NCBI GenBank assembly: GCA_012520575.1
Contig: JAAYOB010000017.1
Location: 22,832 to 86,831, forward strand
DNA length: 64,000 bases
From: Candidatus Stramentimicrobium fermentans
GTDB taxonomy: Bacteria > Atribacterota > Phoenicimicrobiia > Phoenicimicrobiales > Stramentimicrobiaceae
Reading direction: 5' to 3'
Below the pieces are notes generated by a model, which was not told where the DNA came from, ran no database searches, and worked only from the letters and a program-made list of their open reading frames with translations. The translations under genes were made by a program, and so were the position numbers. How positions within the stretch are numbered: the first letter of the stretch is position 1; each line of letters opens with the position of its first letter. Below, piece by piece: positions 1,688-27,722 of this stretch.

Positions 1688-1719
1688 GATGAAATAATAG
1701 TATTGGATTGAAATAATAG

Positions 1720-2874: not shown

Positions 2875-2896
2875 TTAACACATTTTAATTACAAGA

Positions 2897-4009: not shown

Positions 4010-4428
4010 TAGCTACCGGTGAAAATTAGATAACTTGTATCTGGCCGCCAGAATTTGCAAAATGTATCATGATTTAAAGTAATAGTTTATCAGTTCCTTA
4101 GGGCAGAAAACCATGGGTTTACCTATGATAAATGAATAAGCGACGATATAATGCACTGACGGAGGAGTATCCTAGCAAGTACGGAGGATATAAGAACTAG
4201 TCCCCATATCAAATATCAAATCTTGACGGCAAAGAATACCCACTTTGTAAAAAGTATTTCTTGCAAAAATATATTTATTAGATTATTATTTTGCTCAGTT
4301 ATATTTTCCAACTGTTCTTTTATTAATACATTATGATGGCACCTTTGTAGGTATATATAGAATGTTTATTTGACAGCATTAATTCAATTTAACGTAGTTT
4401 TAAAATTTTGATGTGTAGGAGTTAATAT

Positions 4429-6374: not shown

Positions 6375-6423
6375 GATATAAAATGATATTTATATTAAAT
6401 TATAACGTATCGAGGGGTTAATA

Positions 6424-7209: not shown

Positions 7210-7245
7210 GAATTATTAAACAATATTACAGGGGGGATAGTTTTA

Positions 7246-9282: not shown

Positions 9283-9546
9283 ATGTTTACCGAAGTGTTA
9301 ATGCCTAAGGGTTCTCCAGATATGGAGACAGGTGTCATAATTAAATGGGAAAAAAAGGAAGGTGCAGCAGTAGAAAAAGCTGAAGAAATTGCCAATGTAG
9401 AAACAGACAAAGCAGTAGTTGTTGTAGAGGCGCCTTGTTCTGGAATATTAAATATTTTAGCGCAAGAAGGGGAAGAGGTGCCAGTTGGCAATGTTATTGG
9501 AGCAATTTATGATTCTAAAGATGAGTATGAGAAAAGCTTGAGATAA
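9283..9546 (+). CDS. Stand-alone lipoyl-domain protein (detached E2 lipoyl domain)
   Basis: 87 aa; PKGSPDMETGVIIKWEKKEGAAVEKAEEIANVETDKAVVVVEAPCSG with the lipoyl-lysine ETDKA motif. No catalytic domain in the same ORF. Confidence 0.9.
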   Translation: MFTEVLMPKGSPDMETGVIIKWEKKEGAAVEKAEEIANVETDKAVVVVEAPCSGILNILAQEGEEVPVGNVIGAIYDSKDEYEKSLR

Positions 9547-9602
9547 TCAATAAATAACATAATAAAATAGAATGAAAATATACTGCAGGAGTATTAATAA
9601 GG

Positions 9603-10325
9603 ATGGAAGCAGAGTCTAAGGAAGTAAAGTTAAGCCCTCTTAGAAAAGCAATGATAAGAAATTTTCATTGGAGTAATCAAGTTGCAGCTCAGTCCACTGT
9701 TGGTATCGAAATAAATATGTCGAATTTTTTAAATGTTAAAAAAGAACTGGATCCTTTATGTCTAAACAATTATCATTTAAAACTTACGTTTCTACCCCTT
9801 TTGGTTTATTCAATAGCTAGAACGCTAAACAAACACCCTGCTCTTAATGTAGCATTAGATTTAGAAAATAATTCTATAATCCGTCATGCAGATATTAACA
9901 TTGGCTTTGCCGTGGCTATTCAAAGAAGAGGAATGTCAGGTATTTTGGTACCAGTAATAACCCAAGCTAACAAAAAAACATTAAGAGAAATGATTTCTTT
10001 GATCAAAGATTTGAGCGAAAAGGCGATTCAGGGCTCTATCACACCTGAAGAAATGAAAGGAGGAACGTTCTCTGTTTCAAGTGTAGGCAGCTATGCTGTA
10101 GACTTCATCCAACCACTCTTAACTTATCCGGAAGGAGCTATTCTGGGAATTACGCGCGCTAAAGATAAGCCAATAGTCGAAAAAGGGAAAATAATCATTG
10201 CTCCAATGGCTAATTTCATTATTACAGTTGACCATAGGATAATAGACGGTGTTCCCACCTATGAATTTTTGACAGATCTTAAGAACTACATTGAAAATTT
10301 CAATAAAGTGGAAATTGTTTTTTAA
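9603..10325 (+). CDS. 2-oxoacid dehydrogenase acyltransferase (E2), catalytic domain only
   Basis: GTFSVSSVGSYAVDFIQPLLTYPEGAILGI and catalytic DHRIIDG. No N-terminal lipoyl domain and no recognisable E3/E1-binding domain. Confidence 0.88.
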   Translation: MEAESKEVKLSPLRKAMIRNFHWSNQVAAQSTVGIEINMSNFLNVKKELDPLCLNNYHLKLTFLPLLVYSIARTLNKHPALNVALDLENNSIIRHADINIGFAVAIQRRGMSGILVPVITQANKKTLREMISLIKDLSEKAIQGSITPEEMKGGTFSVSSVGSYAVDFIQPLLTYPEGAILGITRAKDKPIVEKGKIIIAPMANFIITVDHRIIDGVPTYEFLTDLKNYIENFNKVEIVF

Positions 10326-10462: not shown

Positions 10463-11806
10463 TTGTCAAGCCATGGCTGTAAAAGTGGTAGAAAAATAGC
10501 CCTTGATATTATAGAGAAGACTCTGAATGAGATAAATCCATATAATGAAGTTTTGGAAAATATTAGATTTCAGGATAATATCCTTGCCGTCGATACGGAG
10601 CTAGAAACTATTACATTTGATTTAAAAAAGATAAATAATATTTTTGTGTTAGGTGGTGGCAAAGGTTCCCTATTAAGTGCATTAGCCCTAAATAAGGTTC
10701 TGGGAGATAAAATTACTGAAAGTATTATTGCAGTTAAAGGTATTGAATCGCAAAAAATTGATAAAATAGATATTATTAAAACTGGGCATCCCTTGCCAGA
10801 TGATGGAAGTATTAAAGCTGCAAAAGAAATAATAAGAATAGCCAATTTAGCAACAGAGAATGATTTAGTATTTTTTATTGGCTCTAGCGGTACGTCTTCA
10901 ATGATTAGCCTCCCTGTAGAAAGTGTTTCTTTGAAAGATATGCAAATCCTATATAATTTATTGCTTAATAATATCAATAATATACAAGAAATAAACTGTG
11001 TGCGTAAGCATATTTCTTTAATTTCAGGCGGTCGCTTAGGTCAGTACATTTCTCCGGGAATTATTTTAAATTTTCAGCCTGGGAATAAAAAGGAACAATT
11101 TAAAACAATGCCATGGCCCGACTTAATTTGGGAAGATCCTACTACTTTTCAGGATGCAATCTTTGTTTTAAAAAAATATCATATTTGGGAAGATACACCT
11201 ATTTCAATAAAAAAGCACTTGTCCGAAGGAGTAGAAGGAAAACAACAGGAAACTGTTAAAAATATAGGTCCACTTAAAGTATATAATATTCCAATGAGCT
11301 ATAGATATAGTGCTTGCATTGCGGCAAAAAGGATTGCCGAGGAACTTGGCTACAATGCAATGATTTTATCAACAATGTTAGAGGGCGAAAGTAAAGAAGT
11401 AGGAATAGCTTTAGCCAGTATTGCTAAAGACATTGTGAAGTTCAATCATCCTATAAAGCCACCCTGTGTATTAATTGCAGGTGGAGAAACATCGGTTAAA
11501 GTTACTAATAAAGATGGTAAAGGTGGCAGAAACCAAGAATTTGTTTTAGGGTTAGCTGGTAATATTTCCGGTTACAACATAACTGTTGCGGCAATTGATT
11601 CTGAAGGAACTGACGGTCCCACTCAAGTTGCTGGTGGAATTGCCGATGGTGGCACTGCAAAAACATGTCTAGAAAAAAATATAGATCTTTTTGGGCAGTT
11701 AAATAAGAATAACTCTTTTTATGTATTAGATAGTTTGCAAGACCATATAATAACAGGGCCCACAAATGTTGCTGTGCAAAGCATAAAAATAGTGGTTGTG
11801 CAGTAA
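10463..11806 (+). CDS. Glycerate 2-kinase family protein (MOFRL family)
   Basis: VLGGGKGSL, KTGHPLPDDGS, FIGSSGTSSM and the MOFRL segment CVLIAGGETSVKVTNKDGKGGRNQEFVLGLA. TTG start in the ORF track; the frame is open upstream to ~10421 (ATT) behind an AGGAG, so the start is uncertain. Confidence 0.85.
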   Translation: MSSHGCKSGRKIALDIIEKTLNEINPYNEVLENIRFQDNILAVDTELETITFDLKKINNIFVLGGGKGSLLSALALNKVLGDKITESIIAVKGIESQKIDKIDIIKTGHPLPDDGSIKAAKEIIRIANLATENDLVFFIGSSGTSSMISLPVESVSLKDMQILYNLLLNNINNIQEINCVRKHISLISGGRLGQYISPGIILNFQPGNKKEQFKTMPWPDLIWEDPTTFQDAIFVLKKYHIWEDTPISIKKHLSEGVEGKQQETVKNIGPLKVYNIPMSYRYSACIAAKRIAEELGYNAMILSTMLEGESKEVGIALASIAKDIVKFNHPIKPPCVLIAGGETSVKVTNKDGKGGRNQEFVLGLAGNISGYNITVAAIDSEGTDGPTQVAGGIADGGTAKTCLEKNIDLFGQLNKNNSFYVLDSLQDHIITGPTNVAVQSIKIVVVQ

Positions 11807-11843: not shown

Positions 11844-13106
11844 ATGGATAAAATAAAAAAAGTAACGGCTAGAGAGATACTATCTTTAATGGCATTACCG
11901 ACAATTGAGGTTGAAATTGAAACAGAAAGTGGAACCATTGGCAGGGCAGCTGTCGATATCGGAACCTCAATAGGTAAGTATGAAGCTCTAACGCTATTTG
12001 ATGGCGGAAAAAGGCTTTTTGGTCAAGGAAATCTTAAAGCGGTTCAAGCTGTCAATGAAAAAATTGCTCCTCAATTAATCGGATTGGAAATTACGGAACA
12101 AAAGACTATTGATAGTATAATGCTCGAATTGGATGGTACACCCAACAAAAATAATTTAGGTGGAAATTCATTGCTAGGTGTGTCTATGGCAATAGCAAAA
12201 ACGGCAGCCATGTCATTACGAGTACCTCTGCACAAGTACTTATGCCCTGATAATAAAGAGTATATGATCCCTGTTCCTATTTTTGTTATGATTCACGGTG
12301 GCGTTGGATTTGCTAATCAACTTGCATTGGAAGATTTTTGTATAATTCCCACAGGTTTTAATACTTTTAAAGAAGCTATAGAAAGTGGAATTGAAATATA
12401 CTATAAACTTTATGATTTGTTGAAGGATAAACATTTGGTAGCCCCGGGGATTACTTTTGTGCCACAAATGAGTAAAACACGGGAAGTTTTAGACTGTTTA
12501 TTAAAGTCTATCAAACTATGTGGGTATCAGGAAAACTATACTTTAGGTTTAGACGCCGCAGCAACAGAATGTTTTAATGCTAACCAGGGAACGTATAATA
12601 TAGACCAAGAGGAAATGGATAAGTCGCAAACAGTAGATTTTTATAAGAAAATAATAAAGGAATATCCAATTTTTTATTTAGAGGACCCTTTTGATGAAGA
12701 AGACATTGAAAGTTACCAAAAAATACAGCATAACGGTATTCAAATTGTTGGAGATGATTTAATTGCCTCTAATAAACAAAGATTAAAGATGTCTTCTGAT
12801 TTAAAATTAATAAACAGTACTGTATTAAAGCCAAATCAAATTGGAACAATTACAGAATTATTGGAAATTGCTAAATATGCAAACCAGAATAATATTGACA
12901 TTATTTCATCAATCAGAAGTAAAAGTACAAATGAACTTTTTTTGGCTGATTTTTCCATTGCAGTAAATGCTGTCCAAATTAAGGCAGGGTGTGTAGTTGG
13001 ATACCCTGCAACGGGGATATACAATAGATTCCTTGAAATAGAAGATAAAAATAAATATAAATATCAAGGACCATTTTTAAAAAATAAATATTCATTATTA
13101 ACATAG
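11844..13106 (+). CDS. Divergent enolase-like protein 1
   Basis: Enolase fold signature throughout (MLELDGTPNKNNLGGNSLLGVSMAIAKTAA, LGLDAAATE, YLEDPFDEED, IVGDDL, LKPNQIGTITE, QIKAGC), but DSRGNPT, GGSHADN, GDEGGFAP and SHRSGET are replaced. Confidence 0.85.
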   Translation: MDKIKKVTAREILSLMALPTIEVEIETESGTIGRAAVDIGTSIGKYEALTLFDGGKRLFGQGNLKAVQAVNEKIAPQLIGLEITEQKTIDSIMLELDGTPNKNNLGGNSLLGVSMAIAKTAAMSLRVPLHKYLCPDNKEYMIPVPIFVMIHGGVGFANQLALEDFCIIPTGFNTFKEAIESGIEIYYKLYDLLKDKHLVAPGITFVPQMSKTREVLDCLLKSIKLCGYQENYTLGLDAAATECFNANQGTYNIDQEEMDKSQTVDFYKKIIKEYPIFYLEDPFDEEDIESYQKIQHNGIQIVGDDLIASNKQRLKMSSDLKLINSTVLKPNQIGTITELLEIAKYANQNNIDIISSIRSKSTNELFLADFSIAVNAVQIKAGCVVGYPATGIYNRFLEIEDKNKYKYQGPFLKNKYSLLT

Positions 13107-13121
13107 ATAAAGGGGGACTGT

Positions 13122-13943
13122 ATGAGACTACTTGAGGGGAAAGTTGCCATCATAACTGGCGGGGGAAGTGGAATTGGTAAAGGTATTGCTGAGGTGTTTG
13201 CACGTGAAAATGCAAGCTTAGTTATTACAGGGATTGATTTCCTGGACACATCTGATAATCATTGCGAAAGCAAACAAATTGATGGCTATAAAAATGCTGT
13301 TAGCTTTGTTCAAGAATTAACAGAAATGGGTATTAAAGCCATAGCGCTAGAATCGAATGTTACTTTATGGAATGATGTTCAAAAAATGGTAGATGAAACT
13401 ATGAATACTTTTGGGAAAATAGATATTTTAGTTAACAATGCCGGGATTGCTACTAGAAACAGACTAGAGGATTTAAGTGAACAGGAATGGGATAATTTAA
13501 TGGAAGTTAATAGTAAGGGTGTTTTTCTATGTTGCAAAGCGGTTGTTCCAATTATGAAAAAAAATCGAACTGGAAAAATAATAAACATAGCCTCTGTTTC
13601 TGGAAAAAGAGGTTATCCCGGACAAAGCCACTATTGCGCATCAAAGTTCGCAGTAGTCGGATTTACTAATGCCATAGCAATGGAATTGGCGCCGGATAAT
13701 ATTAATGTGAATGCTATTTGTCCTGGCATTGTAGCAACAAGAATGTGGGAATATTCAAGAAAAAAGAAAGCATTGCCTGGTGAAGATGGAGAGGCTGCCT
13801 TTCAAAGAACCGTGAAAGAGGGAATCCCTCTAGGTGTACCGCAAACGCCTGCAGCTATTGGTGAAACTGCATTATTTTTGGCTTTATCAGAGCACATTAC
13901 TGGCCAGGCTATAAATGTTGATGGGGGAATGGTTTTTCCATAA
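13122..13943 (+). CDS. SDR-family oxidoreductase
   Basis: AIITGGGSGIGKGIA, LVNNAGIA, SHYCASKFAV, GQAINVDGGMVFP. Confidence 0.9.
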   Translation: MRLLEGKVAIITGGGSGIGKGIAEVFARENASLVITGIDFLDTSDNHCESKQIDGYKNAVSFVQELTEMGIKAIALESNVTLWNDVQKMVDETMNTFGKIDILVNNAGIATRNRLEDLSEQEWDNLMEVNSKGVFLCCKAVVPIMKKNRTGKIINIASVSGKRGYPGQSHYCASKFAVVGFTNAIAMELAPDNINVNAICPGIVATRMWEYSRKKKALPGEDGEAAFQRTVKEGIPLGVPQTPAAIGETALFLALSEHITGQAINVDGGMVFP

Positions 13944-13973
13944 AATAAAAAAATAAAAAGGACTTTAGGAAAT

Positions 13974-15029
13974 ATGTTGAAAATATTAACTATAAATCCC
14001 GGTTCAACTTCCACTAAAATAGCAATCTATGAAAATAAAAATTGCATTGAGAATCACTCTATTTTACATAATCAAAAAGTACTTGATATGCCCCTATTCC
14101 CAGATCAACTAATTTATCGGCAAAAAGAAATTACGGAGTACCTACAAAAAAGATCACATGCAATCGAAACAATTGATGCATTAGCTGTCAGAGGGGGACG
14201 ATTAAAACCTTTGAGCTCCGGAGTGTACTCTGTTAATGAAGCAATGGTCAAAGATGCAGAAGCTGGTTTACAAGGTTCACATCCCGCAAATTTAGCCGTA
14301 GTGATGGCATGGGACTTATTTAAAAAATATAAAATACCAGCTTATACTGTTGATCCAATTAGTGTTGATGAATTAGAAGATTTTGTTAGAATAACAGGGA
14401 TAAAAGGTATACAGAGGAACTGTCTTTCCCACGCCTTGAATATGAAAGCTGTTGCCAAAAAGGCTGCATACGATATAGGTAAGCCATATGAAGAATCTAA
14501 TTTTATCATTGCTCATTTGGGTGGAGGAGGCTCCATTGGTGCCCATAAAAAAGGCAGGATGGTAGATGTCTATAACAGTGATAAAGAGGGTCCTTTTTCA
14601 GTTGAAAGAGCAGGAAACCTACCTTCGTTAGACCTTATTAGCTATCTTAATGAAGGAAAGCGATCTTTTGCACAATCTATAGATGAAATTACTCATAAAT
14701 CAGGATTGTACAGCTATTTTGAGTCGCGTGATATGGCACATATTGAAGTCCAGTCTAAAAATGATAAAAAGTTAGCCATTATACTGCAGGCGTATATCTA
14801 TAATATTTCTAAGTACGTTTGCAGTCTTCTACCCATACTTAATGGTGACTTAGATGCTGTGATTCTGACAGGGGGAGTTTGTCACTCTAGCTTTATCCAA
14901 GAAATGTTGAATGAAAAACTCAGTTTTTTGGGGAAAATTATGTTTTATCCTGGTGAGTTTGAAAACGAATCACTAGCTCACAATGTTTTTTTAGCCATAA
15001 AAGGAGATATTATAATAAATGAATATTAA
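13974..15029 (+). CDS. buk: Butyrate kinase family (short-chain carboxylate kinase)
   Basis: LTINPGSTSTKIAIYENK, AVRGGRLKPLSSGVYSVN, HLGGGGSIGAHKKGRMVDV. Confidence 0.9.
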   Translation: MLKILTINPGSTSTKIAIYENKNCIENHSILHNQKVLDMPLFPDQLIYRQKEITEYLQKRSHAIETIDALAVRGGRLKPLSSGVYSVNEAMVKDAEAGLQGSHPANLAVVMAWDLFKKYKIPAYTVDPISVDELEDFVRITGIKGIQRNCLSHALNMKAVAKKAAYDIGKPYEESNFIIAHLGGGGSIGAHKKGRMVDVYNSDKEGPFSVERAGNLPSLDLISYLNEGKRSFAQSIDEITHKSGLYSYFESRDMAHIEVQSKNDKKLAIILQAYIYNISKYVCSLLPILNGDLDAVILTGGVCHSSFIQEMLNEKLSFLGKIMFYPGEFENESLAHNVFLAIKGDIIINEY

Positions 15030-15897
15030 CACCATCTCTTTTGATTTTATTAAAAAACAAGCAGAAAAAAAACAATCAAATATTAGAATTATTCTTGTTT
15101 GTCCAGATGATTCATTACTAAATGCTGCAGAGCTTGCAAAGAAAAATAACATAGCCCAATTTATTGTTATTGACACTAAAAAAAACAAACTGAGAGATAC
15201 AATAATTGCTGAAAACTATGAAGAAGTAATGCGAAAAGTAGCTAGTCTTATTCTAAAAGGGGAAGCAGACACCATGGCTAAGGGCTTAATTAATACATCA
15301 ATATTTCTGAAGGAAATAATTCATTCAAAAATTAGCAACCAACTTTTAACTCATACCTCTATTGTTGAACTTAAAGATTCAAAAAAAATTTTCATTATTT
15401 CTGACGGCACCGTTATTCCTAATCCAACGCTGGAGCAAAAAGTTACAATTATAGAAAATTCAATTAAATGTGCCAATATCATGGGGATAGAAACCCCAAA
15501 GATTGCTCTCTTAAGTGCAAATGAATTAATTTTAAGAGGAATAGAATCAGGTTATGACTGTGCTATATTGAGCAAGATGGCTGAGAGGGGACAGATAAAT
15601 AAAAAGAAAATTGTTTTAGATGGACCAATGTCTTTAGATACTGCAGTATCAGAGGAGGCAGCAAACAATAAGAAACTTTCGTTTGCATTTAAACCACCTG
15701 CCGATATTCTAATAACCCCTAATTTGGAAAACGGAGCTTTTTTGATCAAGGCAGCTGTCTATATGGGAGGGGCTAAAGTAGCTGGGTTGCTGTGGGGAGC
15801 AAGCTATCCAATAATATTAACTTCGAGAGCAGATTCTGAGGAAGCTAAATATATATCTATTTGTTTATGTAGTTTAGCAAAAAGTAAAATTCAATGA
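15019..15897 (+). CDS. ptb: Phosphate butyryl/acetyltransferase
   Basis: GEADTMAKGLINTSIFLKE, ISDGTVIPNPTLEQK, DGPMSLDTAVSEEAA. Overlaps the buk 3' end by 11 nt. Confidence 0.85.
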   Translation: MNINTISFDFIKKQAEKKQSNIRIILVCPDDSLLNAAELAKKNNIAQFIVIDTKKNKLRDTIIAENYEEVMRKVASLILKGEADTMAKGLINTSIFLKEIIHSKISNQLLTHTSIVELKDSKKIFIISDGTVIPNPTLEQKVTIIENSIKCANIMGIETPKIALLSANELILRGIESGYDCAILSKMAERGQINKKKIVLDGPMSLDTAVSEEAANNKKLSFAFKPPADILITPNLENGAFLIKAAVYMGGAKVAGLLWGASYPIILTSRADSEEAKYISICLCSLAKSKIQ

Positions 15898-16011
15898 TTA
15901 ATAGAATTCTTAAGTTAATATTAAGAAAATTGACAATATTGATATAAAATGATAGATTATATTGTAATATATTAAAAGATAACAATTTTATAGATATAAT
16001 TGGAGTTAAAA

Positions 16012-16776
16012 TTGATTCCTTTTGAAAGAAGAGAAAAGATATTAGCATTATTAAAAAAAGAAAAATTTTGTAAAATTAGTTATCTTAGTAAACGCCTGAA
16101 TGCATCTTACATGACAGTGCATAGAATGTTAAATGAGCTAGAGAGAGAAGGGCTTGTTAAGAAAGTGCATGGAGGGGTTAGGCTAAATGAATCTACTTCT
16201 GCAAAAATAATGTTTGAGTTACGCATGAATGTTAACTTGCCCCAAAAAAGAGAGATTGCAAAGAAAGCAATAGATTTTATAGAAGAAGATGATATTATTT
16301 TTTTAGATTCTTCTACCACTTGTTATGTATTAGCAAAAGAATTGTCTGCTCGTGACATAAATAATATAACGCTTGTTACAACTTCCCCATTTATTATACA
16401 TGAGCTTTCTGATTGTATAAATATGAATATAATTTCTACTGGAGGACAATTGGATACTAGAACTAAAGGCTTTGTAGGGCCATTGGCTATTAATACGCTG
16501 GACCAGGTACACATAAGCACAGCCTTTATTTCATCCGGAGCAATTAGTGTTGAACAAGGAATTAAAAGTTCATTCCCGTTTATAGTTGAGATAAGGAAAA
16601 GAGTAATTGAAAAAGCTAACAAGGTTATTTTTATTGGTGACAACTCAAAGTTTCATAATAACAGTCTGCTAACAATAGCACCGTTAAGTAAGATTGACTT
16701 AATAATAACAGATTCACAATTAGATCAAAAAATACTTAATTATTTTTTGGAAAAGGGTATTAAAATAATTAATTAG
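16012..16776 (+). CDS. DeoR/GlpR-family transcriptional regulator
   Basis: N-terminal HTH (ERREKILALLKKEKFCKISYLSKRLNASYMTVHRMLNELEREGLVKKVHGGVRL) and sugar-phosphate-sensor C-terminal domain. TTG at 16012 preceded by GGAG is preferred over the track start at 16000. Confidence 0.88.
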   Translation: MIPFERREKILALLKKEKFCKISYLSKRLNASYMTVHRMLNELEREGLVKKVHGGVRLNESTSAKIMFELRMNVNLPQKREIAKKAIDFIEEDDIIFLDSSTTCYVLAKELSARDINNITLVTTSPFIIHELSDCINMNIISTGGQLDTRTKGFVGPLAINTLDQVHISTAFISSGAISVEQGIKSSFPFIVEIRKRVIEKANKVIFIGDNSKFHNNSLLTIAPLSKIDLIITDSQLDQKILNYFLEKGIKIIN

Positions 16777-16906
16777 AATAAATGAAGAGCATAATCGAGC
16801 AAGAAAATAGTAAATATGCAAGGAGGTGAAGTGTTTTTATATCTTCTACCTGACTGTGCCGGTAGTTATAGTAAAAAATTAGATTTAATAAAAGGAGAAA
16901 AAAGAC

Positions 16907-17902
16907 ATGAATAAAAAATTTAGATTAGTAATGTTAGGATTAGTACTTGCAATTTTCGCATTAACGATGTCAGCATTTGGAGCTCCGAAAGTAATGAAAA
17001 TTGGTCATGAAATGAACCCCGAACACCCCGAACATCAAGCATTACTAAAATTCGAAGAATTGTTTGAAGAAAGAACTAATGGAGAATTTGATGTACAGAT
17101 ATTCCCATCTAATCAATTGGGAAGTTTTTTTGTACAGATTCAAAATATGAAGCAGAATATTCAGCAAGGACACTTAAATGGTTTAGGCTGGCCGGGACAT
17201 TTTGTTCCAGAATTTTTCTTATTTAATACCGCCTTTGCCTTCAAAAATTTTGATGAATATGCGAAAGCAATCAATTCCCCGGTAGGTCTGGAAATTAGAC
17301 AGAAATTGATTGATGAGCATGGGATAAGATTAGTGTCTGTGTCTGAATGGAGAAGAGGTGTTAGAAACCTTTTATGCAAGCATCCGATAAATTCAGTTGA
17401 TGAGGTGGTAGGTTTAAAGATAAGAGTTCCTGAAACTCCTTCTTATATTGAATCTTGGAAAGCATTAGGTGCATCCCCAACCCCAGTTGCTTTTGGAGAA
17501 GTGTATCTTGCCCTACAACAGGGTGTTGTTGATGCAATGGAATGCCCTTTAGATCTGATATATTCTCAGAAATTCTATGAACCTGCTAAATACATTTCTC
17601 TTACCGGGCACCTACCTGAATTAGTTGCCTTAGGTGTAACGGAAAAATTTTATCAAAGTTTAACTGATGAACAAAAGGTAATTCTCGAAGAATGTGTTAC
17701 AGAAGCCGGCATCTACAATCGTGAAATAGTAGCAAACAGCGAAGCAGATATAAAAGCAAAGATGGCAGAAGCTGGTGTTAAATATATCGAAGTTGATCAG
17801 AATGCTTTTTGGGAAAAAGGTAAGAATGCAGCATACAATTTAGAAGAGCTGGAAATTTGGCCAAAAGGTTTCTACGATAGAATTGCCGAATCAATAAAAT
17901 AA
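16907..17902 (+). CDS. dctP: TRAP transporter solute-binding protein
   Basis: Signal peptide, KIGHEMNPEHPEHQALLKFEELFEERTNGEFDVQIFPSNQLG, LKIRVPETPSYIESWKALGASPTPVAFGEVYLALQQGVVDAME. Confidence 0.92.
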   Translation: MNKKFRLVMLGLVLAIFALTMSAFGAPKVMKIGHEMNPEHPEHQALLKFEELFEERTNGEFDVQIFPSNQLGSFFVQIQNMKQNIQQGHLNGLGWPGHFVPEFFLFNTAFAFKNFDEYAKAINSPVGLEIRQKLIDEHGIRLVSVSEWRRGVRNLLCKHPINSVDEVVGLKIRVPETPSYIESWKALGASPTPVAFGEVYLALQQGVVDAMECPLDLIYSQKFYEPAKYISLTGHLPELVALGVTEKFYQSLTDEQKVILEECVTEAGIYNREIVANSEADIKAKMAEAGVKYIEVDQNAFWEKGKNAAYNLEELEIWPKGFYDRIAESIK

Positions 17903-17948
17903 TTAAATTACTTTATGACTGAAACACCTAAAACAATGCAATAAAAAC

Positions 17949-17983
17949 AAAGCAGGCAGTTTTTGCAACTAACTGCCTGCTTT
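17949..17983 (+). promoter_or_regulatory. Perfect hairpin between dctP and dctQ
   Basis: aaagcaggcagtt (17949-17961) / aactgcctgcttt (17971-17983): 13-bp perfect inverted repeat with 9-nt loop. Confidence 0.8.
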
Positions 17984-18068
17984 AAAAATACAATATACCT
18001 AAGTCAGTCAAATGTAATAATTGCTGGTATTGGACTAATACAATTATTTGGTTATAACATAATCATAA

Positions 18069-18568
18069 TGGGGGTGATGTTTGTGGAATTACTAAGACAT
18101 AAATTAAATAGAACAGTTGTAATAATTGCTCAAATAATTCTTGTAGTTATGGTATTCACAGTGTTTTCCCAAGTAATAATGCGCTATATTTTTCAGAAAC
18201 CGTTAATGTGGAGTGAAGAATTATCTAGATATCTGTATGCATACTTATGTTTTTTTGGAATCTCAATATCAACATATGAAAAAACACACTTAGATGTTAC
18301 CTTTTTAGTTAAAAAATTTCCTAAAACTATACAGCATTATTTAAAGATATTTTCAATGTTGCTAATGTTATTGATTTTTATTATCGTATCTCGAAATGCT
18401 TTATTACTTCCAAAAGTAGGAGGCACTATTAGAGCATATAGTCTTGGGATACCATTTTGGGTGTTAAGTATATCAATGGTTCCAGGGTTTATTATATCTT
18501 CAATATATATTATTACTTATCTATATGAAAGCATCATTAATCGGGGTCAGAAAGGGTTAGAAATATGA
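18069..18568 (+). CDS. dctQ: TRAP transporter small permease
   Basis: VMRYIFQKPLMWSEELSRYLYAYLCFFGIS. Start set at the internal ATG 18069 behind a gggg-type RBS, because the ORF-track start at 17963 lies inside the hairpin. Confidence 0.85.
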
Positions 18569-19842
18569 GTGGAACAGTTCTTATAATATGTTTTCTTTTA
18601 TTGATGTTAGTAGGTGTGCCTATTGGGTTTAGTATGGGGGCTACTTGTTTACTTTTTTTTGCTTTTAGTGATATTCCTTTTACAGCGATACCGCAAATTA
18701 TGGTAAGTCTCTTTGAAAATTTTCCTTTTTTAGCGATTCCGTTTTTCGCTTTGGCGGGTCAACTAATGAATACAGGGGGGGTCACTGACAGAATATTTGG
18801 CTTTGCTAAGACTCTGGTAGGTCATATACCCGGTGGTTTGGGCCATGCTAATGTTGTAGCAAGTATGATTTTTGCGGGGATGAGTGGTTCTGCCGTTGCA
18901 GACAGTGCAGGGTTAGGAGTCATAGAAATAAAAGCTATGGTTGAAGATGGATATGATAGAGACTTCTCAGCCGCTGTTACTGCCTCTTCTTCAACCATTG
19001 GCCCCATTATACCTCCCAGCATTCCTTTTATTCTTTATGGGGCTATGGCGAATGTTTCAGTTGGTGCACTTTTTATTGCTGGTGCAATACCAGGAATATT
19101 AATGGGATTAGGCTTAATGGTAGGTGTATACTTAATTGCTATAAAGAAAAATTATAAAGTATATAAAAAGGCCACGCTGAAAGAGTTATGGAATGATTTT
19201 AAAGACGCTTTTTTATCACTACTAACTCCGGTTATTATTATGGGCGGCATAATATTGGGTATAGCAACCCCGACAGAAGCTGCGGTTATTGCCGTGGTAT
19301 ACGCCTTTATACTACAGACCTTTATATACAATCAATTTACTTTTAAAGGTTTGCTTGAAAGTTTGGAAAATGTGGCTAAAAGTATAGGCATGATTGCTTT
19401 TCTAAGTTGTACTGCATACTTATTCGGGTGGGTTCTCAGTTATGAGATGATACCGCAGCAATTTACTAATCTGATTTTATCCGTAACTTCTAATAAATAT
19501 ATAGTGTTATTAATCATTAATTTATTGTTACTTTTAGTTGGATGTTTTATGGATACTACCGCAGCCATTGTTGTTTTAGTACCAGTTCTCTTACCAGTAA
19601 TAGATCTTTTTGGAATAAACAGGGTCCATTTTGGTGTATTGTTGACTATAAATTTAATGATTGGTCTTCTTACTCCTCCCGTTGGTATGTGTGCATATTT
19701 AGTTGCAGACATAGCGAAAGTATCTTTTGAACAAGTAGTAAAAGCTTGCGTGCCTTTCATAATCATATTAATAGTAGTATTAATGTTAGTTACCTATTTC
19801 CCCCAAATTACTCTATTTCTACCGAATTTATTACTAAAATAA
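18565..19842 (+). CDS. dctM: TRAP transporter large permease
   Basis: MLVGVPIGFSMG, FAGMSGSAVADSAGLG, SSSTIGPIIPPSIPFILYG, LTPPVGMCAYLVADIAKV. Confidence 0.93.
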   Translation: MSGTVLIICFLLLMLVGVPIGFSMGATCLLFFAFSDIPFTAIPQIMVSLFENFPFLAIPFFALAGQLMNTGGVTDRIFGFAKTLVGHIPGGLGHANVVASMIFAGMSGSAVADSAGLGVIEIKAMVEDGYDRDFSAAVTASSSTIGPIIPPSIPFILYGAMANVSVGALFIAGAIPGILMGLGLMVGVYLIAIKKNYKVYKKATLKELWNDFKDAFLSLLTPVIIMGGIILGIATPTEAAVIAVVYAFILQTFIYNQFTFKGLLESLENVAKSIGMIAFLSCTAYLFGWVLSYEMIPQQFTNLILSVTSNKYIVLLIINLLLLLVGCFMDTTAAIVVLVPVLLPVIDLFGINRVHFGVLLTINLMIGLLTPPVGMCAYLVADIAKVSFEQVVKACVPFIIILIVVLMLVTYFPQITLFLPNLLLK

Positions 19843-19963
19843 AAGCAACTCAGAAAACTTTGAACGAAAAGATATTGAAGGTAGTGGTAGGTCAGCATGT
19901 GATGCAAAGTGGTAGGATTAATAAATATTTAATTACATTCTATTCGAAATAAGGAGTCGTATT

Positions 19964-20929
19964 ATGAAAAAAATTTCAAGAAAAATAGTAATGTTTACCG
20001 CGTTTGCAATTCTGATTTCATCTGTAGGAGTTTTTGCTAATGATTATCCCGATAAACCAATAGAGATGGTCGTACCTTACGCACCGGGAGGCCGTAGCGA
20101 TATCGCCGCAAGAATCCTGGGTAAATATTTTCCAAAATATTTAGATCAGCCCACAGTAATAGTCAATATTGCTGGAGCTTCGGGAACTGTGGGATCTCAA
20201 AATGTTTTAGAATCAAGGCCGGATGGGTATAGATTACTTAACCATCACGAATCCATGTTGTCAAGCTTTGAAACTGGTCTTGTTAATTTTACCTGGAATG
20301 ACTTTACTGTAATTTGTACCACAGTGGCTACTGACAATGTTGTTGTTGCTATGCCCGATGCACCCTATAGTAACTGGCAAGAATTAAAGGAGTATTCACA
20401 GAAAAATCCGAATGCTTTAACCATGGGTGTCTCAGTTGGGTCAAATGCACATTTAGCTGGAATTGTAATGAATAAGGATGCTGGTGGCACATTAGATATT
20501 GCTCTTGGTGGCGGAGGAGATACCGATAGAATTACTAAGCTGCTAGGGGGCCATTTGGATCTTACCACGGCGAGTGTCCCTTCTGTGATGGGCTTCATTG
20601 AAGCGGGCCAACTCAAACCAATAGTATTGCAGTCAAGAGATAAAAGTAAATTTTTACCAAATGTTCAAACATGGGAAGAAGCAAATCTAAAAGGGAATTT
20701 CGGCTATTATCAGGTCATATATGCACCACCCGGAACCCCAGACAATGTTGTGAGAATAATATCTGAAGCGATCAAAGAAATTAGTAGCAACTCTGAATAT
20801 ATAGAAGAAATTGAAAAAAATGGCATTGAAGTAACATATCTAGATACAAAAGAATCTATAGAATTCTTAAAACAAGAAGAAGATTATTTTAGACCTTTAT
20901 TCGAAGAAGCAGGTTTAGTGAAAAAGTAA
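19964..20929 (+). CDS. tctC: Tripartite tricarboxylate transporter (TTT) substrate-binding protein, Bug family
   Basis: DYPDKPIEMVVPYAPGGRSDIAARILGKYF, NIAGASGTVGSQNV, YAPPGTPDNVVRIISEAIKEI. Confidence 0.9.
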   Translation: MKKISRKIVMFTAFAILISSVGVFANDYPDKPIEMVVPYAPGGRSDIAARILGKYFPKYLDQPTVIVNIAGASGTVGSQNVLESRPDGYRLLNHHESMLSSFETGLVNFTWNDFTVICTTVATDNVVVAMPDAPYSNWQELKEYSQKNPNALTMGVSVGSNAHLAGIVMNKDAGGTLDIALGGGGDTDRITKLLGGHLDLTTASVPSVMGFIEAGQLKPIVLQSRDKSKFLPNVQTWEEANLKGNFGYYQVIYAPPGTPDNVVRIISEAIKEISSNSEYIEEIEKNGIEVTYLDTKESIEFLKQEEDYFRPLFEEAGLVKK

Positions 20930-20961
20930 GCACACTAAATTTAAAGCATAATTATTTAAAT

Positions 20962-21001
20962 GGTATTTGAGAAGGAGTTTATATTGTCCTTCTCAAATAC
21001 C
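20962..21001 (+). promoter_or_regulatory. Perfect hairpin between tctC and tctB
   Basis: ggtatttgagaagga (20962-20976) / tccttctcaaatacc (20987-21001): 15-bp perfect inverted repeat. Confidence 0.8.
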
Positions 21002-21149
21002 CTGAACAAAAGAAGCAAATAATCGGGCCACAGTTAAAAGCTGCGGACAGTAGTATAAAAAAGCATTTCAAAGATCATATGTATATTCTTACAATACTTT
21101 TACGAAGGATATTAAAAATAGATATATCGAAACAATAGGGAGAGGAAAA

Positions 21150-21620
21150 TTGAAATTAACAAAGGATTCAGTAATCGGGTTAATTGGAATGTTAGTTGGT
21201 TCAATATTATTTTTAAGTACCCAACGAATTAGAGATTGGCATTTAGATAGATTGGGAACTTCATTTTTCCCCAAAGTTTCCGCTATTTTAATAGTATTAT
21301 GTAGTTTGATGATTTTATTATCCAGTTTAAAGAAGAACACTCTTATTACTGCAAGTGATAGGGAAAATAGCTTATCTGTGAAAATAGAGTTAGGCTTTTA
21401 TAGTTATGTTTTCATTTTTATTTCGCTAATATTATATGTAATAGTTCTTCCTATATTAGGTTTTGTTATTTCAAGTACTATGTTAATGTTATTCATTTAT
21501 TTATTCATCGTTAAAGAAATTTCTATGCAGAACTTATTAAGTGGATTGGGATTTTCAGTGTTAAGTACATTCATACTATGGTATCTTTTTACTAAACAAC
21601 TTTATGTAATTTTACCTTAA
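21150..21620 (+). CDS. tctB: TTT transporter small membrane subunit
   Basis: ~156 aa, four predicted TM helices, located between tctC and tctA. Confidence 0.78.
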   Translation: MKLTKDSVIGLIGMLVGSILFLSTQRIRDWHLDRLGTSFFPKVSAILIVLCSLMILLSSLKKNTLITASDRENSLSVKIELGFYSYVFIFISLILYVIVLPILGFVISSTMLMLFIYLFIVKEISMQNLLSGLGFSVLSTFILWYLFTKQLYVILP

Positions 21621-21649
21621 ATTAAAGAATATAATAAAATGCTGGAGAT

Positions 21650-23182
21650 TTGTTTATGGAAGCATCTTCTTTTAGTAATGTTATAAGCAGTTTTCAAATA
21701 GTACTATCTCCTATTTCACTTATTCTAGCAACTATAGGTGTATTTGGGGGGATGGTTTTTGGGGCAATGCCAGGTCTTACAGCAGTTATGGCTATTACTA
21801 TTGCCTTACCATTTACCTTTTTTATGAGCCCCAGTCATGCAATCATATTACTTATAGCAATTGATATTGGAGCTATTTCTGGAGGTTTTATCTCAGCTTG
21901 TTCATTAAATATGCCTGGCACTCCTTCCTCAGTCGCAACCACCTTTGATGGTTATCCAATGGGCCAAAAAGGTAAACTTGCGGAAGCTTTTGGAATTAGC
22001 ATTATTTCTTCAGGAACAGCTGGGTTAGTAAGTGGTGTCATTCTTATTTTTGCAGCACCTGTATTGGCAAAAATAGCTTTAAAGTTTGGTCCTTTCGAAT
22101 ATTTTTCACTAGGTATTTTCACATTTTTAGCCATATCTGGGTTAATGTCTGGGGACCTATGGAAAAACCTATTAGGTGTTGCAGTTGGATTGGTTATTGC
22201 TAGTATTGGTTCTGATCCCATTACAGGGCTTCATCGTTTTACTTTTAATATTAGTAATTTATCAGGGGGAATAGCTTTACTACCTTTTATGGTTGGAATC
22301 TTTGTTTTACCACAACTTATTGATGATATTACAAGTTTTTCTGATGTTATGATTCCCCAAAATGCGCATAATATTCAATTAAAACACATGTTGCCTGATT
22401 TAAAATTTTATAAAGATCAGGCTATAAACTACATACGTTCTTTCTTAATTGGAATTGGTATTGGTATTATGCCAGGGATAGGGGGGACTACTAGTAATGT
22501 CATCAGTTATGAAGTGGCTAGATCTTATTCTAAGTATCCGGAGAAGTTTGGTACAGGAATACCTGATGGTGTTGTTGCGAGTGAAACAGCTAATAATGCA
22601 TCAATTGGGGGAGCATTTATTACCTGGCTGGGATTAGGAATACCTGGTGATGCAGTAACTGCTATTTTATTAGGTGCTTTAATGATTCATGGCATACAGC
22701 CTGGTCCACTTCTTTTTAAAAATCACCCTGTTCTCGTGAATGTAATTTTTACAACTAATTTAATTAGTAATATTATTATGATTTTAATGGGATTTTTCCT
22801 AATCAAATGGTTCATTAAAATATTAGGTTTACATAAAAAGTTTCTTTTGCCCATTATTACAATATTTTGCATATTAGGTGCCTACTCTACAAATAATCGG
22901 ATTTTTGATATCTGGGTAGTAATATTCTTTGGCATATTTGGTTTTATATGGAAAAAATTAGGGCTTTCCTTAGTGCCGGTTTTGATTGCCTATATTCTTC
23001 AGCCAATTGTTGAAAAAGGAATAAGAGAGGGAATATCTATCAGCAAGGGCAGCTTTTTACCATTAGTTAGTAGACCAATCTCTCTAACATTACTTATTAT
23101 GGGCTTTTTATCGGTGTTGCTGGGAACTTATATGAAGCATAAAGTCAATGAGAGAAACAAGGATCAAGTACTTGATGATTAA
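21650..23182 (+). CDS. tctA: TTT transporter large membrane subunit
   Basis: GMVFGAMPGLTAVMAITIALPFTF, GSDPITGLHRFTF, GIGIGIMPGIGGTTSNVISYEVARSYSKYPEKFGTGIPDGVVASETANNASIGGAFI. Confidence 0.93.
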   Translation: MFMEASSFSNVISSFQIVLSPISLILATIGVFGGMVFGAMPGLTAVMAITIALPFTFFMSPSHAIILLIAIDIGAISGGFISACSLNMPGTPSSVATTFDGYPMGQKGKLAEAFGISIISSGTAGLVSGVILIFAAPVLAKIALKFGPFEYFSLGIFTFLAISGLMSGDLWKNLLGVAVGLVIASIGSDPITGLHRFTFNISNLSGGIALLPFMVGIFVLPQLIDDITSFSDVMIPQNAHNIQLKHMLPDLKFYKDQAINYIRSFLIGIGIGIMPGIGGTTSNVISYEVARSYSKYPEKFGTGIPDGVVASETANNASIGGAFITWLGLGIPGDAVTAILLGALMIHGIQPGPLLFKNHPVLVNVIFTTNLISNIIMILMGFFLIKWFIKILGLHKKFLLPIITIFCILGAYSTNNRIFDIWVVIFFGIFGFIWKKLGLSLVPVLIAYILQPIVEKGIREGISISKGSFLPLVSRPISLTLLIMGFLSVLLGTYMKHKVNERNKDQVLDD

Positions 23183-23627
23183 TCAATAGTGAATTTCGAA
23201 ATTATACTATTAGACTGTTAATAGGTGGATCCTTATAAAGGGTCGTATAATAACGTTTTTTTAGAATATAATACTTTTTACTAAAGAGATTTGTTGTCAG
23301 GAGCAAAGCTATAGCTAACATATAAATAAAAATGTGAATTATGGAGAAAATTTGGCTAAGGGTTTGTTAATCTGCAAGCTGCGGGCTAAGAAATGTATGG
23401 AAATAAATAAACGTATTTTTTGATATGTTCAAAAAGAATCTCACATCAATCAATATGGCTTGTGTGACGGCTTAAACCCTCGCTCCAAAAAAATAGTAAT
23501 TTAAAATTACAATATTTAAAGGCAAAAACTGTCTTTTTAAAAGAAAATCCTAAACAATTAGCCCAATTACACATTACTAATAAATACGATTGGCTACAAA
23601 GATTGTTTAATTAAAGAAATACAAGTA

Positions 23628-23641
23628 ATTTAGCGCTAAAT
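23628..23641. promoter_or_regulatory. Perfect palindrome upstream of enolase-like 2 (candidate operator)
   Basis: atttagcgctaaat, 14-bp perfect palindrome about 30 nt before the start codon. Confidence 0.4.
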
Positions 23642-23671
23642 ATAACTTAATATATTTTCTAGGAGGATGTT

Positions 23672-24910
23672 TTGTTAAATAATATCAAGTCTGTAAGAGG
23701 TTTAGAAATTATTATTAGCCCAGGTATTCCCACTATAAAAGCAGTTGTTGAAACAGAAGGTAACCATAAAGGAGTCGCCACAATTCCTATAGGGACATCT
23801 CGGGGGAAGTACGAAGCTAACTATTTATACGACAATGAAGCAAGATTTAATGGTAAGGGTATGAGGAAGGCAGTAAAAAATATCAATGATGTTATTTCAA
23901 AGAGATTAAGAGGTGTAGAAGTATCCAATCAAAGAACTATCGATGAAATAATGCTTGAGCTTGATGGAACTGAAGATAAATCTAAGTTAGGAGCTAATGC
24001 AATACTTGCAGTTTCTCTCGCTGCTGCAAGGGCAGGGGCAGAAACTGCAGGCCTACCACTATTTCGCTATTTAGGTGGATTGTATGCCTATAGAATTCCG
24101 GATATTTCAACTACTGTGATTGCAGGAAGTAAATTTTCTCCATCACAAATAGATTTTGAGGATTATACTTATGTATTTTCCGGTTTCAGTTCGATAATGG
24201 ATTCTATAGAAGCCCTCGCTAAAGTGTTTGGAAAACTTGAAGAAAATATTAGAAAAAAATATGGACCAATCCCATCAGTAGTCGGGGGAGCACTTGCACC
24301 ACCATTAAAGAGTAACGAAGAAGCCCTAGATTATATGATGGAGAGCGTATCTTTTTTTAACCTTGAAAAGCATATAGGAATAGGAATCGATATAGTTGGT
24401 GAGGAACTCTGCTCATCCCAGCCATTCACCTATTCTGTTAATGGGGGAAATTTATCAAAAGAGGAATATATAGAATACCTTAAGAATTTGACTAAGATAT
24501 ATCCAATTGTTTTCTTAGAAGACCCTTTTGGAGAGGATGATTTTGAGGGGTTTTCTCAACTAACTAATCAAATAGGAGATAGAATAAATATTGTTGGAGA
24601 TGATCTGTTTGTAACAAATTATAGAAGAATTGAGGAAGGTATTAAAAAAACTGCGGGGAATGCAATTATTTTTAAAATTAATCAAGCTGGTACTCTGACT
24701 GAAGCCCTTGAAGCTGCCCGGATAGCTAAGGAAAATAATTTTAAAATTATTGCTTCTGGCCGTTCAAGTGATTCTAATGATGATTTTGTATCCGACATAG
24801 CCGTAGCGCTTTCTGCCAATATAATGAAAAGTGGACCACTTGTCAGTGGCGAGAGAATTTCAAAATTTAATAGATTGATTGAAATCGAGGAAATTATTAA
24901 TAAAACCTAA
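23672..24910 (+). CDS. Divergent enolase-like protein 2
   Basis: IMLELDGTEDKSKLGANAILAVSLAAARAGAETAGLPLFRYLGG, VFLEDPFGEDDFEGF, IVGDDLFVTN, IFKINQAGTLTEALEAARIAKEN. Canonical GDEGGFAP and SHRSGET are lost. TTG start behind AGGAGG. Confidence 0.88.
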   Translation: MLNNIKSVRGLEIIISPGIPTIKAVVETEGNHKGVATIPIGTSRGKYEANYLYDNEARFNGKGMRKAVKNINDVISKRLRGVEVSNQRTIDEIMLELDGTEDKSKLGANAILAVSLAAARAGAETAGLPLFRYLGGLYAYRIPDISTTVIAGSKFSPSQIDFEDYTYVFSGFSSIMDSIEALAKVFGKLEENIRKKYGPIPSVVGGALAPPLKSNEEALDYMMESVSFFNLEKHIGIGIDIVGEELCSSQPFTYSVNGGNLSKEEYIEYLKNLTKIYPIVFLEDPFGEDDFEGFSQLTNQIGDRINIVGDDLFVTNYRRIEEGIKKTAGNAIIFKINQAGTLTEALEAARIAKENNFKIIASGRSSDSNDDFVSDIAVALSANIMKSGPLVSGERISKFNRLIEIEEIINKT

Positions 24911-25066: not shown

Positions 25067-26197
25067 TTGAAAATCACACATATTGAGGCATATGATTTAA
25101 ATATTCCTTGTGATATCAAATATAGTGCTGCATGGGCACCTGGGGTAAGTGAAGAATTCCGTAAATTCACATTAGTAATAGTACGAACAGATGAGGGTCT
25201 GAGTGGGTATGGCGGTGGTAATGGACATTTTGCTGCAAGGATTGTCAAAATAGTCAAACCTTTCTTGCTTGGTGAAAATCCCTTTTTTGTAGAAAAATAT
25301 ATCAGAATTCTCCGTGATATTGGAGGAGTTTGGGCAATAGAAATAGCATTGTGGGATATAATAGGCAAAGCAGCTAATCTTCCGTTATATATGCTATGGG
25401 GGGCCTCTCGTACAAAGATTCCAGCCTACGCTAGCACTTGTGTTAGTGGACTACCAGGTAATTTTGACGAAAGAATCCAGCAAGTTAAAAGATATTATAA
25501 TGAAGGATTTCAAGCAATCAAAATCCGACTTCACTTTGATACAATAGAGGAAGATTTGCAATATGTTGATACCGTTATCGAGGCTGTAGGGGGAAAAGTA
25601 GATATAATGGTAGATGCAAATCAAGCCACATTAATGATTCCTTCCGCCGTTAAGAGCCCCAGATGGGATTACCGCAGAGCCTTGAGAACCGCCAAAGAAT
25701 TAGAAAAAAGAGGGGTTCTGTGGTTGGAAGAACCATTAGGTCGTTGGGACTTTGACGAATTAGCTCGCCTTAGAGAGAATACGGAAATATATATTGCCGG
25801 TGGAGAAATGAATAATGCTTTGCATGATTTCCGGTTAATGGTAGAGAAAAAATCTTATGACATAATTCAACCGGATGTAGTAAATCAATCACTAACAGAG
25901 GTTATGAAAATAAAAGGTCTGTGCGAAACATTCAATATTCATTTTGTTCCACATCATGGTGTTAGTGCAATTGGCTTAGCAGCAACTATTCATATCTTAT
26001 GTACATATGATCATTGGACTTTTATGGAATATATATATGACCCCCCTTACCGTACAATTGAAAATTATCAATGTTTGGGTGGAATTGTAAGAACACCAAT
26101 ATTAGTAGATGGAACAGGCTCTATTTCCCCACCACTTGGACCAGGTCTTGGGATAGTAATCGATGAAGGCAAGATTAAAGAATATAAAGTGGACTGA
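25067..26197 (+). CDS. Mandelate racemase/muconate lactonizing enzyme (MR/MLE) family, probable sugar-acid dehydratase or epimerase
   Basis: AIKIRLH (K-x-R), MVDANQ, WLEEPL, AGGEMN, QPDVVNQ, VPHHGVSAIG. Confidence 0.9.
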   Translation: MKITHIEAYDLNIPCDIKYSAAWAPGVSEEFRKFTLVIVRTDEGLSGYGGGNGHFAARIVKIVKPFLLGENPFFVEKYIRILRDIGGVWAIEIALWDIIGKAANLPLYMLWGASRTKIPAYASTCVSGLPGNFDERIQQVKRYYNEGFQAIKIRLHFDTIEEDLQYVDTVIEAVGGKVDIMVDANQATLMIPSAVKSPRWDYRRALRTAKELEKRGVLWLEEPLGRWDFDELARLRENTEIYIAGGEMNNALHDFRLMVEKKSYDIIQPDVVNQSLTEVMKIKGLCETFNIHFVPHHGVSAIGLAATIHILCTYDHWTFMEYIYDPPYRTIENYQCLGGIVRTPILVDGTGSISPPLGPGLGIVIDEGKIKEYKVD

Positions 26198-26357: not shown

Positions 26358-27722
26358 ATGAATACCGCTCATTGGAAAAAAATTAAAATAGATTATTTAG
26401 ATAGCAATCTTGTGGTGGAAGTACCTCAAACCTGTGATATTTTGCAAATGAACCCGGTTTCACCGCTACCGAATATACCTGAAGCAATTGAATATTCATT
26501 TCAAAACCCTATTCACAGTGAAACTATTGACGAGATAGTTTCTTATCATCCTAAGCCTGCTGAAGAAATTACAGTTGCTATTGCTGTGTCTGACAATACA
26601 CGTCCTGTTCCTTATAATTGCACTAATAAGAAGAATATACTATCGCCTGTAATAAACCGGTTGGAAAGGTCTGGTATTAATAGGCAGAATATCAGGATTA
26701 TTATAGCAACCGGAACCCATGCCCCTACATCTATACAATGGAAGAAGGAAGCCTTTGGAGACGATATTTGTGAAAATTACATTATATTGGACCATGATTG
26801 CCGTAGTGAGGATTTAATCCCCATAGGGCTGATTAAAGGGGTGCCGGTAAAGATAAACCGAGACTTTATTCAATCAGATATACATATTGTTACTGGTCTA
26901 GTTGAAGCTCATTTTATGGCCGGAGTTTCAGGAGGCCGTAAAGCCATTTGTCCCGGTCTTGTTAACTTAGAAGCTACACAAGTATTTCACGGGCCAGAAT
27001 TCATGGCTGATACCAATGCTGATAATCTAGTCCTTTACCGTAATCCCTGCCATGAATTTGCTCTAGAAGTAGCTTTAAGGACGAGAGTGGACTTTACAGT
27101 AAATGTTTTGCTTAATGGCGACATGGATATTTGTGGTATTACCACTGGAGATTTAGAGATATCCCATCAGAAAGCATTAGCCCAGCTAAAGTCATTTTCT
27201 GAATTAAAACTTGATAAGAAGTATGATATTGTTTTAACCCATGGTGGAAAAGGTGCTGTAAATCACTATCAGGCTGTCAAAGGAGCTTGGGCTGCACTAC
27301 CAGCAGTTGATAGAGGTGGTCACATTATTTTATTAGCACACAACCAGGATAATGAACCAATTGGCAGCCCGCATTATAAAAATTTAATTAAAAAACTCAA
27401 AAAAGTAGGGATAGGTAATTTTTCTCCTTTGCTTTCTAAGCCAGATTGGGTTTTTACTCATGATCAATGGGAAGTACAAAAATGGGAACAAGTCTTTATG
27501 AGAATAGGTGGGGAACAACAATTAATATATTGCACAACAAATATTCCCCCTGAAATTTTAGCAGCTTTGCCTGGACTAAATGGTTATCAGTTTGTAGAAG
27601 ATTCCTCAACTAATATCACAAATATGTTACAACAAGTAATTTACTATTGTGTTAAACAAAAAGGAAACGCATCCATGGCTTTTTTAAAGGAAGGACCCTA
27701 TATAGTTTTAAAAAATCAATAA
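26358..27722 (+). CDS. LarA-family (nickel-pincer, lactate racemase-like) protein
   Basis: VSDNTRPVP, IATGTHAPT, GLVEAHFMAGVSGGRKAICPGLV (cofactor lysine context). Confidence 0.88.
   Translation: MNTAHWKKIKIDYLDSNLVVEVPQTCDILQMNPVSPLPNIPEAIEYSFQNPIHSETIDEIVSYHPKPAEEITVAIAVSDNTRPVPYNCTNKKNILSPVINRLERSGINRQNIRIIIATGTHAPTSIQWKKEAFGDDICENYIILDHDCRSEDLIPIGLIKGVPVKINRDFIQSDIHIVTGLVEAHFMAGVSGGRKAICPGLVNLEATQVFHGPEFMADTNADNLVLYRNPCHEFALEVALRTRVDFTVNVLLNGDMDICGITTGDLEISHQKALAQLKSFSELKLDKKYDIVLTHGGKGAVNHYQAVKGAWAALPAVDRGGHIILLAHNQDNEPIGSPHYKNLIKKLKKVGIGNFSPLLSKPDWVFTHDQWEVQKWEQVFMRIGGEQQLIYCTTNIPPEILAALPGLNGYQFVEDSSTNITNMLQQVIYYCVKQKGNASMAFLKEGPYIVLKNQ

Follow-up and report, generated by a model that had tools for sequence, protein, structure and literature searches.

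Can an enolase that has lost its general acid and two active-site histidines still be an enzyme of glycolysis? The question is raised by two genes in a 64,000-nucleotide stretch of the Candidatus Stramentimicrobium fermentans genome (contig JAAYOB010000017.1; this whole stretch is termed the window): ENO1 (P1; 11844..13106) and ENO2 (P2; 23672..24910, TTG start), both on the forward strand and both recognized as non-canonical enolases from profile matches and alignments. Our answer, held with moderate confidence, is that they are kinase-linked, non-glycolytic enolases: C2 of a C3-substituted 2,3-dihydroxy acid would be phosphorylated, and the C3 hydroxyl then eliminated. Both reading frames are intact and their coordinates were confirmed. 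An earlier note on this DNA had aligned both with enolase along their length, and this is borne out: ENO1 and ENO2 score 361 and 406 bits against the TIGR01060 ‘eno’ model (curated cut-off, 300), cover both Pfam enolase domains in full, and can be aligned collinearly with enolases of solved structure, of which 2pa6 is the best. Chance resemblance is not an issue.

Active-site positions are given here in yeast enolase numbering. H159, Q167, E168, E211 and H373 are invariant in all 34 canonical enolases of our comparison set; aligned with these, ENO1 carries H159G, Q167E, E168D, E211G and H373I (G155, E163-D164, G202 and I357 in its own numbering), and ENO2 carries H159F, Q167E, E168D, E211G (a gap in one alignment) and H373G (F155, E163-D164, G205 and G363). 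The GDEGGFAP loop is VAPGITFVP in ENO1 and VVGGALAP in ENO2, neither with any acidic residue, and the lid loop of both is IGTSxGKYEA; the two proteins are only ~36% identical to each other. Kept in both are the metal triad D246, E295 and D320, the Mg(II) serine S39, and K345, R374, S375 and K396 (for ENO1 these are, in its own numbering, S42, D237, E280, D304, K329, R358, S359 and K380). K345 is the base and E211 the acid in enolase, and the equivalents of E168, E211, K345, R374 and S375 touch 2-phosphoglycerate (PMC4450660). By these assignments, one half of the site, for forming and stabilizing the enolate, is intact, and the other, around the leaving group, is replaced.

The earlier note was right that the metal-ligand and lysine contexts survive and that E211 and both histidine motifs are gone from the two proteins; its list of changed residues is accurate as far as it goes, having passed over E168D, with the new glutamate before it, and the altered lid. 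It had allowed that careful alignment might restore the catalytic Glu and His residues, or that the genome might have no other canonical eno. The residues stay lost on alignment, and a bona fide canonical eno, with every active-site residue kept, lies elsewhere in the genome (G000:C50:129501-130766; 676 bits). The NCBIfam cut-offs for sugar-acid dehydratases of the MR_MLE type are not reached (best for ENO2, 18.7 bits vs 393). Judged from their sequences, ENO1 and ENO2 are enolases by family, sharing with phosphopyruvate hydratase (EC 4.2.1.11, TIGR01060) its full-length two-domain homology and the kept residues listed above, but they are not phosphopyruvate hydratases by that enzyme’s defining catalytic features: E211, H159 and H373 are missing, E168 is Asp and the lid is altered. 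An AlphaFold model of ENO1 (three sequences, pLDDT 64.5) was set aside for pocket geometry as too low in confidence.

Relatives of these proteins fall into several types by active-site make-up, with ENO2 in type A. Among 61 genomes, mostly from the same phylum, the type A/P1 make-up occurs only in the source genome. A scan of GTDB contigs with the motif IGTSxGKYEA turned up a single real relative (L042) besides one chance match; a scan of viral sequences with the same motif gave one chance match only. L042 belongs to a metagenome-assembled genome of an uncultured Clostridiales bacterium in which another enolase gene, of the ordinary type, scores higher; its variant enolase is 46% identical to ENO2 and lies directly behind a gene for a MOFRL kinase. 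The enolase of a second relative, G126 (L075), likewise abuts a MOFRL kinase. The L042 kinase, searched against the genomes of one family, yielded further pairs: L121 and L122 (type A), L123 and L124 (type D), and L125 and L120 (type E). Plasmid records searched with ENO1 and ENO2 held no close type A or P1 relative; that search led to a haloarchaeal pair of type C, a make-up that combines H159L, H373E and A38R with retention of E168 and E211. Beside or near a DUF4147 gene, type C occurs in plasmid records of Haladaptatus, Halorubrum, Salmonella and Paraburkholderia, and type D in those of Agrobacterium and Rhizobium. A genome of the source organism’s own order (G010) also has a type C enolase. 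Haloarchaea as well as unrelated bacteria have the kinase-enolase module, in several active-site versions, and because the residue losses recur in independent genomes, they are unlikely to be sequencing noise or simple decay.

The surroundings of these relatives differ. Type E modules lie near genes, read by eye, for a KDPG-aldolase-type protein, an aldehyde dehydrogenase and a sugar kinase; around the Halorubrum type C enolase are mannonate dehydratase, MR_MLE and aldehyde dehydrogenase genes. These contexts suggest sugar-type acids for other members. In a Salmonella India plasmid (L133, 2143-9554), a type C enolase is accompanied by MFS, DUF4147 and GntR genes and by its own pyruvate kinase, such that genes for all three steps of the route proposed below occupy one locus; an E. 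coli search with this Salmonella locus gave no match. The type D pairs on Agrobacterium and Rhizobium plasmids (L131, L137) are followed by a gene annotated as ‘tyramine oxidase subunit B’, and L131 has Glu/Leu dehydrogenase and cupin-type genes there as well; opine or amino-acid catabolism might be served there. One type D enolase, on a Rhizobium jaguaris plasmid (L130, about 6379-7697), is frameshifted, and related plasmids have intact copies.

Association with the kinase separates the two kinds of enolase. We collected 96 distinct enolases, 20 non-canonical and 76 canonical, and counted as linked those with a MOFRL kinase within 3 kb: 18 of the 20 non-canonical enolases are linked vs none of the 76 canonical (Fisher p 1.4e-17), a count that is biased because many of the variants were found through the kinase. 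If only those enolases that came from enolase searches are considered, the figures are 6/8 and 0/76 (p 7e-8). Both p-values are indicative only, since related genomes are not independent. In a 50-genome sample of the phylum, a MOFRL kinase is found in two genomes, exactly those with kinase-linked enolases. The two unlinked non-canonical enolases are ENO2 and the second enolase of genome G007 (L035 780-2090). The latter has H373A and E168D with E211 and H159 kept, stands beside sugar kinases with no MOFRL kinase, and groups with canonical enolases.

The partner kinase of the source genome is itself unusual. Encoded 37 bp upstream of ENO1 (10463..11806, forward strand), this glycerate 2-kinase homologue is the sole MOFRL kinase found in the genome; it has both DUF4147 and MOFRL domains (Pfam), aligns with the solved 1x3l and 2b8n, and misses the glycerate 2-kinase equivalog cut-off (176 bits vs 550, for a model of archaeal enzymes). 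The SDVxGD...[AG]SGP loop is absent from it, and the sequence found there is NFQPGNKKEQFKTMPWPDL. The same [AG]SGP loop is absent from all 16 enolase-partner kinases, in which its replacement is largely specific to each enolase type, whereas an SDxxx(G)...ASGP loop is present in 24/24 kinases without an enolase neighbour and in the solved PH0495 (1x3l). A further 12 kinases, sampled at an even spread among plasmid hits, all keep [AG]SGP and all lack an enolase neighbour, several of them lying, where annotated, in glyoxylate, tartrate or methylotrophy contexts; this brings the total of enolase-free kinases that keep the loop to 36 of 36 sampled. SGGGS alone was dropped as a mark of ordinary glycerate kinases, since 3 of these 12 have GGA instead. 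Because partner kinases lack [AG]SGP and enolase-free kinases keep it, we take kinase and enolase to have changed together, a pattern that unchanged use of glycerate would not readily explain. The parts of the module may also have been exchanged between types: the type A enolase of G126 is paired with a kinase that falls among those of type E.

Trees were computed after removal of the active-site motif columns. Kinase-linked enolases stand apart from bacterial canonical enolases (support 99/97), type A, including ENO2, is well supported (98/91), and types A and E group with ENO1 (95/93). With the Methanocaldococcus jannaschii enolase added, the support for this last group is 97/97, and the archaeal protein falls outside the bacterial canonical side (97/91); the best such tree has no single clade of all types, and a single clade receives a p-AU of 0.485. 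The separate non-glycolytic clade foreseen in the earlier note thus stands insofar as separation from bacterial canonical enolases is concerned; a single origin is neither shown nor rejected. In a smaller tree ENO1 lies beside the type C enolase of G010. We regard all of these placements as provisional given the long branches involved.

The remaining features around the two genes lie on the forward strand and were assigned from profile matches unless otherwise stated. The ENO1 operon is tightly packed and comprises, in order, an SDR dehydrogenase (6424..7209), the E1 alpha (7246..8199) and E1 beta (8273..9250) subunits of a 2-oxoacid dehydrogenase, a stand-alone lipoyl-domain protein of 87 amino acids with the motif ETDKA (9283..9546; read by eye), an E2 acyltransferase catalytic domain that lacks a lipoyl domain (9603..10325), the MOFRL kinase, ENO1, a second SDR dehydrogenase that starts 15 bp after ENO1 (13122..13943), a member of the butyrate kinase family (Buk; 13974..15029) that exceeds the NCBIfam cut-off, and a Ptb-like phosphate acyltransferase (15019..15897) that is under its equivalog cut-off. 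The E2 component is accordingly split (9283-10325) into a free lipoyl domain and a separate catalytic domain. A DeoR/GlpR-type regulator (16000..16776) and then a TRAP transporter, DctP-DctQ-DctM (16907..19842), lie downstream. Upstream of the operon (485-5394) are genes that we named by eye as PFK-like, SelA-like, class V aminotransferase and D-2-hydroxyacid dehydrogenase. The aminotransferase and the dehydrogenase are similar to steps by which a 2-hydroxy acid would be made available to the kinase.

ENO2 is preceded by a tripartite tricarboxylate transporter, TctC-TctB-TctA (19964..23182); a similar set lies 3′ of the enolase in the type A relatives L121 and L122 (by eye). On its 3′ side are a homologue of mandelate racemase-type (MR_MLE) sugar-acid dehydratases (25067..26197) and a LarA-like homologue of nickel-pincer racemases (26358..27722), which scores far under the cut-offs of all LarA subfamily models (231 bits vs 500 for the best). 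A similar LarA-like protein (L036, 3185-4474) precedes the type C enolase of L036. Rfam and tRNA scans were empty and so offered no riboswitch hint to the ligand.

From the residues, grouping, gene linkage and kinase co-divergence described above, we infer the chemistry and the class of substrate as follows. The MOFRL kinase would phosphorylate the C2 hydroxyl, not of glycerate, but of a 2,3-dihydroxy acid bearing a C3 substituent. The resulting 2-phospho acid would be bound in the enolase by R374/S375, K396 and the customary pair of metal ions; K345 would take the C2 proton, and the C3 hydroxyl would be eliminated. The acid would be supplied by a re-tooled pocket in place of E211, for which D168/E167 and the lid residues K42/Y43 are candidates. 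The product would be the enol phosphate of a 3-deoxy-2-oxo acid, and phosphate transfer, for example by the genome’s single pyruvate kinase, would release the 2-oxo acid. In the ENO1 operon this might then be converted by E1/E2 to an acyl-CoA, and by Ptb/Buk to a carboxylate plus ATP; the butyrate-kinase-type last step suggests a short alkyl acyl group. ENO1 and ENO2 would act on related but different acids. That enolate formation is kept, with a different substrate or leaving-group chemistry, as the earlier note had surmised, is consistent with everything that we have seen.

Several points weigh against this proposal. Dehydration without the general acid calls for a substitute acid, which is beyond proof from sequence alone. 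ENO2 has no adjoining kinase; it shares its island with the only MOFRL gene of the genome, but at a distance of ~12 kb. The island showed no pyruvate-kinase-like gene, and the genome’s single pyruvate kinase gene lies outside it. Finally, the branches of ENO1 and ENO2 are long, and across trees the sister of ENO1 shifts between type A/E and type C, an instability that also weakens the idea of one recent shared origin for the two genes.

The acid would be dispensable if the leaving group did not have to be protonated, as with phosphate, or with sulfite released from 2-phospho-3-sulfolactate. The joint loss of E211, H373 and H159 with retention of K345 and the phosphate ligands would fit such chemistry, and a basic residue at lid position 40 or 42 in type A and P1 could bind an anion. 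We nevertheless think it unlikely: no sulfite-handling or sulfonate genes were recognized near any member, the presence of 2-oxoacid dehydrogenase, aldolase or MR_MLE genes makes the contexts look like those of hydroxy or sugar acids, and type C retains E211 and E168 in the same kind of module. It is also improbable that the enolate forms with no elimination at all, the proteins acting on a phosphorylated hydroxy acid as C2 epimerases or racemases. Such activity would account for a kept base and metal site amid lost leaving-group surroundings, and racemase-type and 2-hydroxyacid dehydrogenase genes are nearby; it requires, however, a second acid/base on the opposite face, precisely what ENO1 and ENO2 have lost, and the genes for the downstream steps (2-oxoacid dehydrogenase, Ptb/Buk) point to a 2-oxo acid as the product.

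The scores above the enolase hidden Markov model cut-off and the adjoining glycerate 2-kinase homologue could be accommodated if ENO1 and ENO2 were simply divergent glycolytic isozymes, serving glycerate catabolism through 2-phosphoglycerate. We consider this very unlikely in proteins that lack the general acid and both histidines and have Asp for E168, in a genome with a canonical eno, and with a partner kinase also devoid of its conserved loop; moreover, the glycerate-type MOFRL loci of the spread sample have no enolase neighbour. Least plausible of all is that ENO1 and ENO2 are dead, structural or regulatory proteins or decaying paralogues, as the missing classic catalytic residues might imply, because E167, D168, G211 and Y43 are common to proteins ~36-52% identical from different genomes, every metal, base and phosphate residue is intact, and the genes are linked in operons with metabolic genes and a co-varying kinase.

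The proposed elimination of a C3 hydroxyl after C2 phosphorylation has partial parallels. An enolase homologue with a non-glycolytic reaction has a precedent in carboxyphosphonoenolpyruvate synthase of phosphinothricin biosynthesis; that enzyme differs in serving a natural-product pathway and is not known to be accompanied by a MOFRL kinase. The MR_MLE dehydratases (galactonate, arabinonate, mannonate) likewise use enolase-superfamily chemistry to turn 2,3-dihydroxy acids into 3-deoxy-2-oxo acids, but their substrates are unphosphorylated and their catalytic residues are others, whereas ENO1 and ENO2 lie in the enolase subgroup. Closest in order of steps (C2 phosphorylation, enolase, phosphate transfer) is the route in which class II glycerate 2-kinase (MOFRL/DUF4147), enolase and pyruvate kinase act in the serine cycle or the branched Entner-Doudoroff pathway (PMC2063504). 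That route uses glycerate and the cell’s ordinary enolase; here, kinase and enolase are encoded together and the substrate-facing motifs of both are changed. Non-canonical enolases also differ from phosphopyruvate hydratase in setting, as they sit with the MOFRL kinase in catabolic operons while canonical eno is a separate gene. We found no description of the kinase-enolase linkage in the open-licence literature, which does not of itself prove novelty.

We tentatively extend the proposal, at a little under even odds, to the whole cross-domain set: kinase-enolase pairs, in which five or more active-site make-ups are represented, may carry out ‘phosphorylative dehydration’ of various hydroxy or sugar acids to energy-rich enol phosphates. 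Enolase is regarded as having one function, in glycolysis, and most such proteins are labelled phosphopyruvate hydratase by automated annotation; kinase-linked enolase genes should not be counted as glycolysis. A co-varying module in bacteria and haloarchaea predicts catabolic routes that are as yet uncharacterized, and types A, C, D, E and P1 offer a natural series on enolase chemistry without its general acid. If our proposal is correct, phosphorylative dehydration would be an energy-conserving alternative to the direct sugar-acid dehydratases, hidden under the name eno, and enolase proper would not be a one-reaction family.

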